Shown piece by piece: positions 1,338-26,113 of a DNA stretch of 64,000 nt. The first letter of the stretch is position 1. Each line of letters begins with the position of its first letter. Under the pieces are notes generated by a model. It was not told where the DNA came from. It saw only the letters and a list, made by a program, of their open reading frames with translations, and did not search any database. The position numbers and the translations under genes are program-made. This stretch comes from Ruegeria arenilitoris. GTDB lineage: Bacteria > Pseudomonadota > Alphaproteobacteria > Rhodobacterales > Rhodobacteraceae. The stretch lies in assembly GCF_013031355.1 (NCBI RefSeq), contig NZ_WPZO01000001.1, positions 248,001 to 312,000 of the forward strand, in the 5' to 3' direction.

Positions 1338-1456
1338 GCCCAACTCATAGCCCTGTGGAGCAGTGATGTCGACCTGACGCAGGGTTTGTGCAACATCTGA
1401 CTTGCCAGATAGGCTGCCCTGCGATTTCATGACGTTATGCTGTCAGGAGGTTGGCC

Positions 1457-1642
1457 ATGTCAAAGAACACGGAAGCCGGCGAAACGCCTGACAAGAGAAA
1501 AAAGAACACTTCTATTGGGTTGGACGGAGAGACGTTGATAGCCCTCAAGATCCGGGCAATCGAAGAGGGGACGAGCATCCGGAAGATCATCGAGACTTTG
1601 GTGAATGACTATCTGGATACGCCGAAAAAGGGTCATTCGTGA
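1457..1642 (+). CDS. Small ribbon-helix-helix-like protein, first gene of the CHAD-ParA-CYTH operon
   Basis: A 61-residue protein starting at ATG 1457, six bases after a perfect AGGAGG; an in-frame TTG at 1451 overlaps the spacing region and is unlikely. Residues 1-18 are charged and probably disordered, with a basic cluster (DKRKK). The remainder fits a ribbon-helix-helix fold: strand NTSIGLDGETL, helix ALKIRAIEEG, turn, helix TSIRKIIETLVNDYL. Such dimers bind DNA. A basic disordered N-terminal tail before an RHH domain is also the layout of ParG/omega-type partners that stimulate ParA-family ATPases. The stop codon overlaps the next start (TGATG), suggesting translational coupling. DNA binding, autoregulation or ParA partnering are inferences. 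Confidence 0.72.
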   Translation: MSKNTEAGETPDKRKKNTSIGLDGETLIALKIRAIEEGTSIRKIIETLVNDYLDTPKKGHS

Positions 1643-3153
1643 TGGGGCAGGCAAGTGGGTTTTTCATCGTTTCTGGCAAATTCGATCTGGCGGGGTTTGC
1701 CGACGCGCTCAAGGGGCTGACGCCCGAATTCGAGATGCCAGCAACCGCGCGACCGTTTGACCTGCTGGACTGTCATGATCAGTCGCTTCGGTCAGAAGGG
1801 CAGTTGCTGATTGAGGCCGACGGCGCATTGCAATTGCTGCAGGCCGACGGCGATGTTCTGGGGCAGGCCTGTACCGGCAAAGGAAAGTTCGTTCAGGACC
1901 TGCCGGACGGCCCTGTGAAAACGGCGGTGACGGGGTTCCCCAAATTGCGCGCGTTGATATGCATGGGCTCGGGCCTGATCGAATCCGGAAATTTTGCGGT
2001 GTTGGATGACCTGCAAAAGACGCAGGTTCGGGGCAGCGTTGTGACATTATCTACGGAGGAGGGGCAGGCGACCCTTCTGAACGTGCAGCCGATGCGCGGC
2101 TATGACCGTGCCTTTCACGCTGTCTGCGCGGCGCTGAAGACCATGGCGGCCTCGGGGTTTGAGGCGGTGTTTGCAAGCCTGTTTCCTGGCGCCATCCCCT
2201 ATAACGCAAAGCCCGATGTTACTTTGGGCACACAGGAGCCTTCCATCGAAGTGGCGGCGGATATCATTCGCACCTATCTGGCCGTCGCACGCCAGAACGA
2301 GGCTGGCGTGATCGCTGATATCGACACCGAGTTCCTGCACGACTACCGCGTCTCGCTGCGCAGGGTCCGGTCGGTGTTGAGCCTGTTCAAAGGTGTATTC
2401 TCACCGGAACAGACCGAAACTCTGAAACGCGAATTCTCGGATCTGATGGCCCCGACTGGGCGAGTGCGGGATCTGGATGTCTACCTTCTGGAAAAAGACA
2501 TTTACTTCAATTTGATACCGCCCAACCTTCATCAAGGTGCTGAGGCGATGTTCGCCCAATTCGCCAAGGAACGCACCCGCGCGCTGGCCGCGTTGACCCG
2601 GCGTTTTCGCAGCGCGGCTTATGGCAAGAAGATGGAGGAGTTGGCAGCTTTATTCGCCGACTTGAAAGGGTTGGAACCTGGTCCAAATGCGGATCGCGGG
2701 GCCTATAGCTATGCCTGTGCGCTGATCTGGAAACGGTATCGCAAGGTGTGCAAGCTGGCCCGCGGCATCACATCGGAAACACCGGATGAGATCGTGCATG
2801 ACCTGCGGATCGACTGCAAGAAACTGCGCTATTTGATGGAGTTTTTCGGCCCTCTGTTCGACAAGGGTGATTTCAAAACACTCATCAAGCCATTGAAAAA
2901 GTTGCAGGATAATCTGGGCTTGTTCAATGACTACTCGGTCCAGCAAGAGGCGTTGTTGGCGTTCGTGGCATCCCAAAGCAACGCGCAAGGTCGGGCAAAT
3001 GCGCAACTCGCCATGTCTGTCGGCGGGTTGATCGCCGTGCTCGACCAACGCCAAAAGGCCGAGCGCGACCGCGTGATTGCCAATTTCCAGCATTTCGACA
3101 GCCCGGACATCCAGAACCTGTTCCGAACCCTGTTTCACCACAAGGAGGATTGA
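1642..3153 (+). CDS. CHAD domain protein with a CYTH-like degenerate N-terminal region
   Basis: The 503-residue protein carries a C-terminal CHAD (conserved histidine alpha-helical domain) from about residue 210. Its two signature histidines are His233 (FLHDYRVSLRRVRS) and His386 (IVHDLRIDCKKLRYL), each followed by regularly spaced basic residues as expected for polyphosphate binding. CHAD proteins are known to attach to polyphosphate granules. The first 200 residues lack the ExExK motif but the stretch FDLLDCHDQSLRSEGQ resembles the DTxxxxL region of CYTH domains, so this may be a decayed CYTH half of the common CYTH-CHAD fusion. ATG 1642 overlaps the upstream stop; an in-frame GTG at 1639 is the alternative. 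The next gene follows after 3 bases. Confidence 0.88.
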   Translation: MGQASGFFIVSGKFDLAGFADALKGLTPEFEMPATARPFDLLDCHDQSLRSEGQLLIEADGALQLLQADGDVLGQACTGKGKFVQDLPDGPVKTAVTGFPKLRALICMGSGLIESGNFAVLDDLQKTQVRGSVVTLSTEEGQATLLNVQPMRGYDRAFHAVCAALKTMAASGFEAVFASLFPGAIPYNAKPDVTLGTQEPSIEVAADIIRTYLAVARQNEAGVIADIDTEFLHDYRVSLRRVRSVLSLFKGVFSPEQTETLKREFSDLMAPTGRVRDLDVYLLEKDIYFNLIPPNLHQGAEAMFAQFAKERTRALAALTRRFRSAAYGKKMEELAALFADLKGLEPGPNADRGAYSYACALIWKRYRKVCKLARGITSETPDEIVHDLRIDCKKLRYLMEFFGPLFDKGDFKTLIKPLKKLQDNLGLFNDYSVQQEALLAFVASQSNAQGRANAQLAMSVGGLIAVLDQRQKAERDRVIANFQHFDSPDIQNLFRTLFHHKED

Positions 3154-3156
3154 GGA

Positions 3157-3912
3157 GTGAAGATCATTGCCTGCTACAGCAACAAGGGCGGAGTGGGAAA
3201 GACCGCGACCTCGGTGAACCTGGCATATGCCTATGCACAAGCGGGGTACACGGTGCTGCTGTGCGATCTCGATCCGCAGGGGGCGTCGGGGTTCTATTTC
3301 CGGGTGAAACCGTCGAAAAAGCTGACGGACGCGCGGTTCTTTGAAGATGTAGAACGGTTCACCAAGTCGATCCGGGCCAGTGATTTTGCCGGGCTGGACG
3401 TGCTGCCTGCTAACCTAACCTTTCGCGATTTCGACGTCTTCCTCTCGCGGATGCGGAACAAACGGTCGCGCCTGAAAAAGGCCTTGGCCACCGCGGGTAG
3501 TGATTATGACGTGATCATTCTGGATTGCCCGCCGAACTTTTCGACCCTGTCCGAGAATATCTTCAAAGCTGCCGATCAGATTCTCGTGCCTGTTATCCCG
3601 ACGACCCTGTCAGAACGGACGCTTGAACAGCTGGTGAATTTCTTCGACGATCACAAGCTGCCAAGGAAGAAACTCAAGGCGTTCTTTTCGATGGTGCAGC
3701 GGCGCAAAACCCTGCATCTGGAGTCGATGGAGAAGATGCGTAAAGTGTACAAAAAGCGGTTCCTGCACACCGAGATTCCCTTTGCTGCGGATATCGAACG
3801 CATGGGGCAGAACCGCGCCCCGGTCAGTATCTATGCCGGGCGCAGCGCCGCAAATGTCGCCTATCAGGCGCTGTTCGATGAATTGGAAAACGGAGTGATT
3901 TCAACCAAATGA
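3157..3912 (+). CDS. ParA-family ATPase
   Basis: This 251-residue protein is a ParA/MinD-superfamily ATPase. It has the deviant Walker A motif KGGVGKT (residues 10-16, signature lysine at 10), a Walker A' motif CDLDPQG (36-42) and a Walker B motif VIILDCPP. Members bind DNA or membrane as ATP dimers and move or space cargoes such as plasmids, chromosomal origins, carboxysomes and chemoreceptors. It starts at GTG with the ribosome binding site GAGGA and overlaps the next gene by ATGA. No parB, parS-like repeat or replication gene is near, so a chromosome or plasmid partition role is unlikely. Its CHAD and CYTH neighbours point to a polyphosphate-related cargo, which is inference. Confidence 0.93.
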   Translation: MKIIACYSNKGGVGKTATSVNLAYAYAQAGYTVLLCDLDPQGASGFYFRVKPSKKLTDARFFEDVERFTKSIRASDFAGLDVLPANLTFRDFDVFLSRMRNKRSRLKKALATAGSDYDVIILDCPPNFSTLSENIFKAADQILVPVIPTTLSERTLEQLVNFFDDHKLPRKKLKAFFSMVQRRKTLHLESMEKMRKVYKKRFLHTEIPFAADIERMGQNRAPVSIYAGRSAANVAYQALFDELENGVISTK

Positions 3913-4376
3913 GCACCGAAATTGAACGCAAGTTTCTGGTCGCGGACCTGCCGGACCTGAGCAGCGCGGAAAAGGCCGTCGTGCGCCAGGGCTATCTGAC
4001 CGCACCTGACGATTCCACTGAACTGCGTCTGCGTCAGAAAAACGATAGGTACTTTCTGACTCTCAAGGGTGAAGGCGCTTTGGCGCGGGTCGAGCGCGAG
4101 GCTGAAATCTCGGCAGAACAGTTCGATACCTTCTGGCCCGAAACGGACGGGCGCCGGGTGGAAAAGGAACGCTTTACCGGGCAGTTGCCGGATGGGCGGG
4201 TGTTCGAACTGGACGTGTTTCTGGGCGATCTGGCGCCGCTACGTCTGGTCGAGGTCGAGTTTCAGACTGAGGCCGAAGCCGAAGCCTATAATCCGCCTGA
4301 ATGGTTCGGTGCGGATGTGACTGCGGACAGACGATACAAAAACAAGACGATGGCGATCAAAGGTATTCCGGCTTAG
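3909..4376 (+). CDS. Stand-alone CYTH domain phosphatase
   Basis: A 155-residue protein that is a complete CYTH (triphosphate tunnel metalloenzyme) domain. The N-terminal signature ExExK is present as Glu4-Ile-Glu6-Arg-Lys8 (STEIERKFLV), and later basic and acidic strand residues (LRLRQKN, LTLKGEG, VEREAEI, ELDVFLGDL, LVEVEF) fit the tunnel. Family members hydrolyse tripolyphosphate, thiamine triphosphate or make cAMP; short bacterial versions like this are mostly tripolyphosphatases. The start overlaps the parA-like stop by four bases. It is the last gene of the operon and ends with a 4-base convergent overlap with the histidine kinase gene. Substrate cannot be read from sequence. Confidence 0.92.
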   Translation: MSTEIERKFLVADLPDLSSAEKAVVRQGYLTAPDDSTELRLRQKNDRYFLTLKGEGALARVEREAEISAEQFDTFWPETDGRRVEKERFTGQLPDGRVFELDVFLGDLAPLRLVEVEFQTEAEAEAYNPPEWFGADVTADRRYKNKTMAIKGIPA

Positions 4377-25066: not shown

Positions 25067-26113
25067 TTACGAAATACGGATGCGCGGGTTGAGGTAGACA
25101 TAGCCGATATCCGAGATCAGCTGCGTCACCAGCACCACAAAGACCGACACGACCGAGATCGCCAGCAGCAGCTGAATGTCGTTGTTGCCCGCCGCCTGAA
25201 CCAGCGCCCAGCCAAAGCCCTTGTAGTTGAACAGGGTCTCGACGATCACGACGCCGTTCAGCAGCCAGGGGAACTGCAGCATGATGACGGTAAAGGGCGC
25301 GATCAGCGCGTTGCGCAGCGCGTGTTTCATCACGATGTTCGAGAAGGACACACCTTTCAGGCGCGCGGTTCGGATATATTGCGCCGTCATCACCTCGGTC
25401 ATCGAAGCACGGGTCATTCGGGCGATATAGCCCATCCCATAAAGCGCAATGGTCAAAACCGGCAGGAAGAAGTTCTCAAAAGTTGGGTTCTCCATCGCCT
25501 GTGTTGCCGTGCCTTTGAACCATTTCAAGCCCACGGCGGATGAGGTGAAGATGGCGATGAAAATCACGCCCGACACATATTCCGGTGTCGCCGTGGTGGT
25601 GATCGCAAAGGTCGACAGGGTCCGGTCGGTGGCCGAACCTTCCTTCATTCCAGCCAGAACGCCAAGGATCAGTGCCGAAGGGACCATCAGCAACATCACC
25701 CAGAACATCAGCCTGCCGGTCAAGCCCAGACGGGTTCCAACAACGGTCGACACTTCCTGTTTGAAAACAGTGGAGTAGCCCCAATACCCTTGCAGGATGC
25801 CGCAGAACCTGGGGGCATCTTCTGCGGACTGACCCGGCAAAATACATCTGCCCAGAACCGTGCCGTCCTCATTCGTGTGCCGATAGGACGGAAGAACGCC
25901 CAGCCATTCGCCGTATTTGACCGGCATCGGCTGAAGATACCCGTTCTTTTCCAGATAGCTTTCAACCTGCTCATCCGACATCCGGAAATTGCCCTGCGTT
26001 TTCGCGAGCTTTTCAAGGTTCGGATATAGGTTTGTAAGGAAAAAGACTAAGAATGTCAGACATAATGCTGTCATGAGCATGATGCCGACACGCTTTAGAA
26101 TGAAAAGTCCCAT
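25067..26113 (-). CDS. ABC importer permease, DppB-like
   Basis: A 348-residue inner-membrane permease starting MGLFILKRVGIML, the typical DppB opening; the in-frame ATG 15 codons upstream is rejected for that reason. A large periplasmic loop (about residues 30-135) includes two cysteines (GRCILPG and PRFCGIL) that could pair. The coupling motif lies in YIRTARLKGVSFSNIVMKHALRN, and the protein ends with the usual DppB tail (DIGYVYLNPRIRIS). It pairs with the DppC-like subunit downstream. Confidence 0.94.
   Translation of the reverse strand: MGLFILKRVGIMLMTALCLTFLVFFLTNLYPNLEKLAKTQGNFRMSDEQVESYLEKNGYLQPMPVKYGEWLGVLPSYRHTNEDGTVLGRCILPGQSAEDAPRFCGILQGYWGYSTVFKQEVSTVVGTRLGLTGRLMFWVMLLMVPSALILGVLAGMKEGSATDRTLSTFAITTTATPEYVSGVIFIAIFTSSAVGLKWFKGTATQAMENPTFENFFLPVLTIALYGMGYIARMTRASMTEVMTAQYIRTARLKGVSFSNIVMKHALRNALIAPFTVIMLQFPWLLNGVVIVETLFNYKGFGWALVQAAGNNDIQLLLAISVVSVFVVLVTQLISDIGYVYLNPRIRIS

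Follow-up and report, generated by a model that had tools for sequence, protein, structure and literature searches.

A stretch of 64,000 nucleotides of Ruegeria arenilitoris DNA, here called the window, carries a compact head-to-tail gene cassette at positions 1457-4376 encoding a ribbon-helix-helix (RHH) protein, a CHAD protein, a ParA-type ATPase, and a CYTH protein (Table 1). The cassette may serve to space the polyphosphate stores of a cell or to apportion them, and the CHAD protein is proposed to be both the cargo adaptor and the partner of ParA. A first-pass annotation made from the sequence alone had described a four-gene operon whose members overlap or are separated by at most 3 bases, and the reading-frame list of the window agrees: the RHH and CHAD genes share one base (TGATG), 3 bases separate CHAD from ParA, and ParA and CYTH overlap by 4 bases (ATGA). 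Pfam scores were above the cut-off for CHAD (207 bits), AAA_31 (134 bits), and CYTH (33.7 bits). By Pfam, the neighbors of the cassette are ndk and a divergently oriented TfoX_C gene at one end and a convergent histidine kinase gene at the other.

Table 1. Features of the cassette, with positions counted from the first letter of the window
Feature	Position	Strand	Description
RHH	1457..1642	+	61 aa; small ribbon-helix-helix protein, Lys-rich tail, ParG/CopG-like; likely autoregulator
CHAD protein	1642..3153	+	503 aa; predicted pseudo-TTM domain ~1-200, long-type polyphosphate-binding CHAD domain ~205-498
ParA/MinD-type ATPase	3157..3912	+	251 aa, GTG start; deviant Walker A KGGVGKT; without N-terminal HTH extension
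CYTH/TTM protein	3909..4376	+	155 aa; EIERK motif; likely tripolyphosphatase, close to NE1496 (PDB 2fbl, 3typ)
CHAD codons 126-154	2017..2103	+	K126-T127-x-x-R130 ... R152-G153-Y154, proposed ParA contact
Decayed operator-like site ATGACGTTATGCTGTCA	1429..1445	.	5' of RHH gene; overlaps divergent TfoX_C start codon

Conservation and spread of the CHAD-ParA-CYTH cassette

Gene order was compared in 41 genomes of the genus, in 244 genomes of the order, and at 80 named GTDB loci, which are the best 80 of 377 ParA relatives (63-96% identity). The window ParA was found at at least 80% identity in 27 of the 41 genus genomes, every one of which has the identical order CHAD, ParA, CYTH, histidine kinase. 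At all 80 named loci, CHAD is the gene immediately upstream of ParA, its frame ending at most 80 bases from the ParA start, and CYTH follows just downstream in 66. These 80 relatives span several proteobacterial classes; their record names, some of them possibly wrong, include Rhodobacterales, Cohaesibacter, Neiella, Colwellia, gammaproteobacterial metagenome-assembled genomes, Nitrosomonas europaea, and Alcaligenaceae, and the nearest named ParA relatives among the matches listed are from Ruegeria. The conserved CHAD-ParA(-CYTH) order, for which a neighborhood check had been suggested at the outset, therefore holds far beyond Rhodobacterales, confirming that the packing of the three genes is real and not local. 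Nine plasmid records also match ParA at E values up to 1e-40, six of them from Paracoccus (62-67% identity) and three others at 38-46%, and both Paracoccus records that were inspected carry a small open reading frame, CHAD, ParA, CYTH, and NUDIX consecutively. The surroundings of the cassette vary between genomes, the Paracoccus plasmids included.

Among the 244 order genomes, ParA was present in 25 (E <= 1e-40) and CHAD in 55. ParA adjoins CHAD in 23 of the 26 genomes having a CHAD match at E < 1e-50, the exceptions being G067, G147, and G258, the last two of which carry a CYTH-CHAD protein that retains ExExK. Two genomes with ParA fall outside the 23, namely G200 and G147, whose ParA (44% identity) has no CHAD within 12 kb. 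The remaining 29 genomes with CHAD are all missing from the ParA-positive set at this threshold, and lower-scoring CHAD genes of the order had no ParA neighbor at the five loci viewed. In the genus sample, CHAD scored over the cut-off in 31 of 41 genomes, leaving four with CHAD but without ParA, and G067 is a fifth such genome. For more distant ParA proteins, CHAD was adjacent at 3 of the 7 loci from the class and at 6 of the 29 from the phylum (flanks up to 1.5 kb); the phylum search gave a match in 82 of 398 genomes, and the linkage count covers the 29 loci. The conserved linkage to an adaptor gene by which McdAB-like systems are recognized is thus present at 80/80 named loci and drops to 6/29 at phylum level.

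ParA itself is complete, as first annotated: residues K10-T16 (KGGVGKT), C36-G42 (CDLDPQG), and D123-C124 are invariant in 14 aligned rows, the window included, so that the signature lysine, Walker A', and Walker B motifs that define the ParA/MinD group are all in place. Its gene is under purifying selection, since dN/dS was 0.03-0.11 across 11 pairs, 4 of them between genomes lacking RHH. The lack of a nearby parB also stood, as the five ParB_N matches of this 4.9-Mb genome are all on contigs other than that of the cassette, and no replication gene was recognized among the window genes at 0.5-9.4 kb.

Stand-alone relatives of ParA also exist. Four genus genomes (G011, G022, G004, and G033; loci L032-L035) hold paralogues 57-60% identical to the window ParA, all in one conserved place between the same two genes, which we take to be gyrA-like and M32-type carboxypeptidase-like. 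Three more distant proteobacterial genes (L249, L252, and L256) also stand alone; they are presumably near RnfH-like genes, two of the three near a truA-like gene as well, and L256 near what we take to be a PiT-like phosphate transporter gene. As a separate observation, the CHAD frame at L177 (3375-5001) is broken into two overlapping frames in the assembly.

The CHAD and CYTH proteins and a candidate ParA contact

The closest solved relative of the CHAD protein is CtCHAD of Chlorobium, in which changes at H253, R256, R260, R296, and R418/Y419 are described as weakening polyphosphate binding (PMC6537752, in excerpt). By alignment, counted by hand, these contacts correspond to H233, R236, R240, R276, R396, and Y397 of the window protein. 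All six are kept, and in an alignment of 47 ParA-linked rows five are invariant while H233 is present in 46, so the initial assignment to a polyphosphate-binding family appears sound at the level of residues. The predicted structure (mean pLDDT, 91.8) matched the CtCHAD-polyphosphate complex 6qva with a TM score of 0.94 by target length, and its N-terminal half matched TTM-fold enzymes (YgiF and thiamine triphosphatase) with lower scores. Because this half has the TTM fold but ExExK occurs within the first 60 residues in 0 of the 47 rows, it is, on the predicted model, a dead triphosphate-tunnel (TTM) domain, which is newly recognized here. The protein resembles the CHAD phosins (Ralstonia CHAD proteins, CtCHAD, YgiF, and PptA) in its polyphosphate-contact residues and TTM-CHAD layout and differs from them in a TTM half that lacks ExExK and carries RGY and in the linkage of its gene to parA.

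Residues that may serve the contact with ParA were sought among positions conserved at 93% of the 47 ParA-linked rows, by comparison with five orthologues from genomes without ParA (L054-L057 and L130). Alterations in at least two of the five occurred at 4 of 16 conserved N-terminal positions (T127, R130, R152, and Y154) and at 2 of 87 in the CHAD domain. As a control, sets of five ParA-linked rows were held out, 500 sets per pool, from 36 rows with CHAD-domain identity below 0.70 and from the eight most distant rows. In the 36-row pool, four N-terminal changes were reached in 0/500 sets and two CHAD-domain changes in 132/500; in the eight-row pool, no set of 500 reached either count. The N-terminal excess is therefore clear in both controls, while the CHAD-domain count is unremarkable against the 36-row pool and high against the eight-row pool. 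A general decay of the N-terminal half after loss of ParA was considered and rejected, as this half shows the overall identity expected from the common line (residuals, -0.1 to -0.4 standard deviations); only conserved N-terminal positions were altered.

Every one of the 47 ParA-linked rows has R or K at positions 130 and 152 and Y at position 154, whereas Y154 is altered in four of the five ParA-less orthologues and R130 and R152 in three each, making these three residues diagnostic. K126 was dropped as a diagnostic residue, being retained in four of the five, and G153 does not discriminate, being retained in all. As an independent check, eight distant ParA-linked CHAD proteins outside the set that defined the motif were examined, and (R/K)GY was found in 8/8 and R130 in 4/8; the two CYTH-CHAD proteins without ParA have SGD in place of (R/K)GY. 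Since R152-G153-Y154 is kept with ParA and Y154 is lost in four of five proteins without it, CHAD itself is likely the ParA partner, and its hairpin 126-154 would be the part that touches ParA. From these residue patterns, the CHAD protein, acting through its N-terminal pseudo-enzyme domain, is likely a better candidate for the partner than is the RHH protein. A moderate mirror-tree correlation between ParA and CHAD (0.63 for all, 0.59 without Ruegeria) came without a control and was not used, nor was a Fisher test of long CHAD against adjacent ParA, which was circular.

The window CYTH protein is close to NE1496 of Nitrosomonas europaea (2fbl and 3typ; E about 1e-55, with 2e-55 to 2fbl) and has the ExExK motif as EIERK at residues 4-8. 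Furthermore, the Nitrosomonas cassette L209 encodes a CYTH protein with the same sequence as crystallized NE1496 over the aligned stretch, making this enzyme itself a cassette member. Structure 2fbl presumably belongs to the enzyme studied by Delvaux et al. in 2011, and we take NeuTTM to be another name for NE1496. That Nitrosomonas CYTH enzyme is a specific inorganic triphosphatase according to the title of the 2011 paper (Delvaux et al., cited in PMC4641920). The window protein is accordingly likely, by sequence kinship, to be a tripolyphosphatase of the NE1496 type, in keeping with the substrates first suggested for it. The cassette gives NE1496 a genetic context, its ParA and CHAD neighbors being unmentioned in the excerpts of the NE1496 literature.

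At 13 of the 80 named loci, a NUDIX, SixA-NUDIX, CofD-like, or PhoU-like gene is located no more than about 5 kb away. A CofD-like gene is found upstream of the cassette at L062 and L067 (Pfam PF01933) and, by similarity, at L185 and L198.

A dispensable RHH protein and its operator-like site

The RHH-like first gene encodes, as had been noted, a basic N-terminal tail that is predicted to be disordered (pLDDT about 48-57, residues 1-20). Its resemblance to ParG lies below threshold: the Pfam ParG score is 19.2 bits against a cut-off of 21.4, which leaves the protein outside that family by this measure, and the best fold match of the model is ParG 1p94 at E = 1.2. Across 28 members of its own family, RHH_1 is matched in 26 and ParG, at E values up to 1, in 7.

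The first-pass annotation had also likened RHH to the ParG/omega partners of ParA, and a required role of this kind did not survive. RHH is intact in only 6 of the 27 ParA-bearing genus genomes and is absent, fragmentary, or strongly diverged in the other 21 (a strongly diverged open frame in G004, fragments in G010 and G028, and no match at E up to 0.01 in 18). No second RHH outside the cassette was found, since the nine of 41 genus genomes with a match (E up to 0.01) all have it within the cassette. The window copy itself deviates at 5 of the 12 positions that hardly vary in its family, R21 and K28 included, and between the window and L137, also R. arenilitoris, its dN/dS is 0.48 (on only 16 changes) versus 0.05-0.13 for ParA, CHAD, and CYTH. 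Thus, RHH is dispensable, because it is intact in 6/27 genomes while ParA remains under purifying selection, and an essential role alongside ParA was set aside as the main reading. At the named loci, RHH (E < 1e-20, NTS motif, and an upstream Met) is present in 34 of 80, comprising 8 of the first 29, which form the Ruegeria group, and 26 among the 51 that remain. At L070 (3725-4066), a longer protein of 113 amino acids with a basic tail and an RHH_9 match under the cut-off replaces the usual RHH upstream of CHAD.

The presence of RHH is accompanied by that of a short site with the family form ATGA-N4-ATGACGTCAT-N4-TCAT. Of the 34 RHH genes, 32 have exact TGACGTCA in the 160 bases upstream, versus 4 of 44 RHH-less loci, for which the 450 bases before CHAD were searched, and three of these four hold RHH remnants. 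With one mismatch allowed, the counts are 33/34 and 15/44. Background occurrence was 2 sites in 338 kb and 7 in 448 kb. The window site has one mismatch in TGACGTCA. A scan of 12 genomes for the exact extended site gave 10 places, spread over 9 genomes, and 9 of these places are the cassette (positions compared by hand); a role as a regulon site found no support, with a single place outside the cassette, a count that holds for the exact extended pattern only. The co-occurrence of RHH and site fits an autoregulator with its own operator, which is the simplest reading of the sequence pattern, and a second, ParG-like role of RHH alongside autoregulation is possible.

Proposed polyphosphate positioning and competing explanations

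We give about an even chance to the proposal that the cassette uses ParA to position or segregate polyphosphate. In this model, the C-terminal CHAD domain would hold polyphosphate, making the CHAD protein the cargo adaptor, while its dead N-terminal domain would contact nucleoid-bound ParA-ATP through the R130/R152-G153-Y154 surface and so trigger ATP hydrolysis by ParA. Polyphosphate bodies would then be spread or apportioned along the nucleoid, much as carboxysomes are by McdA/McdB. The separate CYTH enzyme may clear tripolyphosphate ends or by-products, and RHH would repress the operon through the TGACGTCA-centered operator. The fuller account, in which a dead TTM domain became the ATPase-activating partner of ParA, was fused to CHAD as a one-protein adaptor that positions or segregates polyphosphate, and spread between proteobacterial classes and plasmids with RHH as an optional part, is tentative and falls somewhat short of an even chance. 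Of the overall reading first offered for this locus, the linkage, the CHAD residues, the CYTH kinship, and the lack of parB have held up, and the role given to RHH has not.

Several observations weigh against polyphosphate positioning. Five genomes (four in the genus sample and G067 in the order sample) keep CHAD without ParA, G200 has a related ParA at a contig end with no CHAD beside it, CHAD is not beside ParA at 23 of the 29 phylum loci, and no CHAD accompanies the four ParA paralogues within the 11.5-12 kb of sequence retrieved for each. The L130 protein, from a genome that still has CHAD and CYTH, retains the entire N-terminal motif in the absence of ParA, and the residue test is small, comprising five sequences that probably represent about three independent losses of ParA, as estimated from context. 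In addition, PPK1 is missing from 12/12 sampled genus genomes, and no report of granules in Ruegeria was recognized among the papers listed in our literature search.

The supply of polyphosphate bears directly on an alternative in which what ParA positions is not storage granules but a different cargo bound by CHAD, for instance chromatin or polyphosphate-bound enzymes. PPK1 was found in 212 of the 244 order genomes but in none of the 12 sampled from the genus, and it is missing more often from cassette genomes than from others (14/23 versus 18/221; 4/13 versus 16/219 with the genus of the window excluded, p = 0.017), an association due mostly to one genus. Long-chain polyphosphate or granules in the sampled genus genomes would therefore need PPK2. 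That enzyme family is present in 41/41 genus genomes with 3-5 matches each, and the genome of the window has four, three of them above the TIGR03707 cut-off. Excerpts from the literature describe granules supported by PPK2A alone in Pseudomonas and by overexpressed PPK2c in Ralstonia (PMC8776046), and parA and CHAD adjoin ppk1 in Acidithiobacillus according to the cluster description in PMC10892726. With these points against it, we regard a different cargo as rather unlikely.

The main rival to positioning is a nonpositional ATPase switch in which ParA controls CHAD in an ATP-dependent manner, comparable to the control of transcription factors by ParA-family regulators such as FleN, for instance by gating access to polyphosphate or by coupling CYTH activity to the energy state. 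The gene linkage and the N-terminal motif would fit any direct contact between CHAD and ParA, and the metabolic genes near 13 of 80 cassettes also suit a switch. ParA/Soj-type entries nevertheless rank ahead of FleN among the solved relatives of the window ParA, and KGGVGKT is unchanged across the 14 rows, both of which are still compatible with a switch; we consider it unlikely, while giving it more weight than any other competitor to polyphosphate positioning. Alternatively, RHH, the operator, and ParA may form a ParG/ParF-like DNA partition module with TGACGTCA as its centromere and with CHAD and CYTH as passengers. Type Ib partition systems (ParF/ParG and delta/omega) pair a short ParA lacking a helix-turn-helix (HTH) region with an RHH protein that has a basic disordered tail, and they carry a site at the head of the operon. 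The cassette shares the short HTH-less ParA, the basic-tailed RHH, and an operator-like site of which 9 of the 10 occurrences, spread over 9 of the 12 genomes scanned, fall at the operon head, and certain cassettes are plasmid borne. Against this, the RHH and the site are dispensable, being missing or decayed in many genus genomes in which ParA is still under purifying selection; the constant neighbor of ParA is CHAD (80/80) rather than RHH (34/80); and no replicon is evident near the window cassette. A DNA partition module thus appears improbable.

Polyphosphate positioning by the cassette would resemble the McdA/McdB system for carboxysomes, which likewise ties a ParA-type ATPase to an adaptor for non-DNA cargo. 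The cassette differs in that its adaptor is a two-domain pseudo-TTM-CHAD protein, its proposed cargo is polyphosphate, and it adds an RHH regulator and a CYTH enzyme. In the passages of a carboxysome paper, a McdA-overproducing strain is noted to have possible polyphosphate bodies, which we counted neither for nor against. AlgP shares the task, even spacing of polyphosphate granules, but is a histone-like DNA-binding protein, and the AlgP paper, in the portions available, mentions CHAD proteins and not ParA. A 2025 review, as excerpted, describes ParA-type positioning for carboxysomes, assigns polyhydroxybutyrate (PHB) granules to proteins without ParA homology, and links polyphosphate granules to AlgP and, in Caulobacter, to chromosome segregation (PMC13052382). 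Adjacency of CHAD and parA is already published, uninterpreted, for Acidithiobacillus (PMC10892726), where a folD-ppk-parA-CHAD cluster joins a CYTH-CHAD gene to parA and ppk1; positioning is not proposed in the passages concerned (PMC10892726 and PMC6416229). No report of ParA-driven polyphosphate positioning was recognized among the papers listed in a search of open-license PMC articles. For the spacing and inheritance of polyphosphate granules, the cassette thus supplies a defined ParA-based candidate from culturable bacteria, with a named adaptor and specific residues. Elsewhere in the window, an Rfam match to the Ruegeria cis52 small RNA (126.6 bits) lies at 25312-25490.

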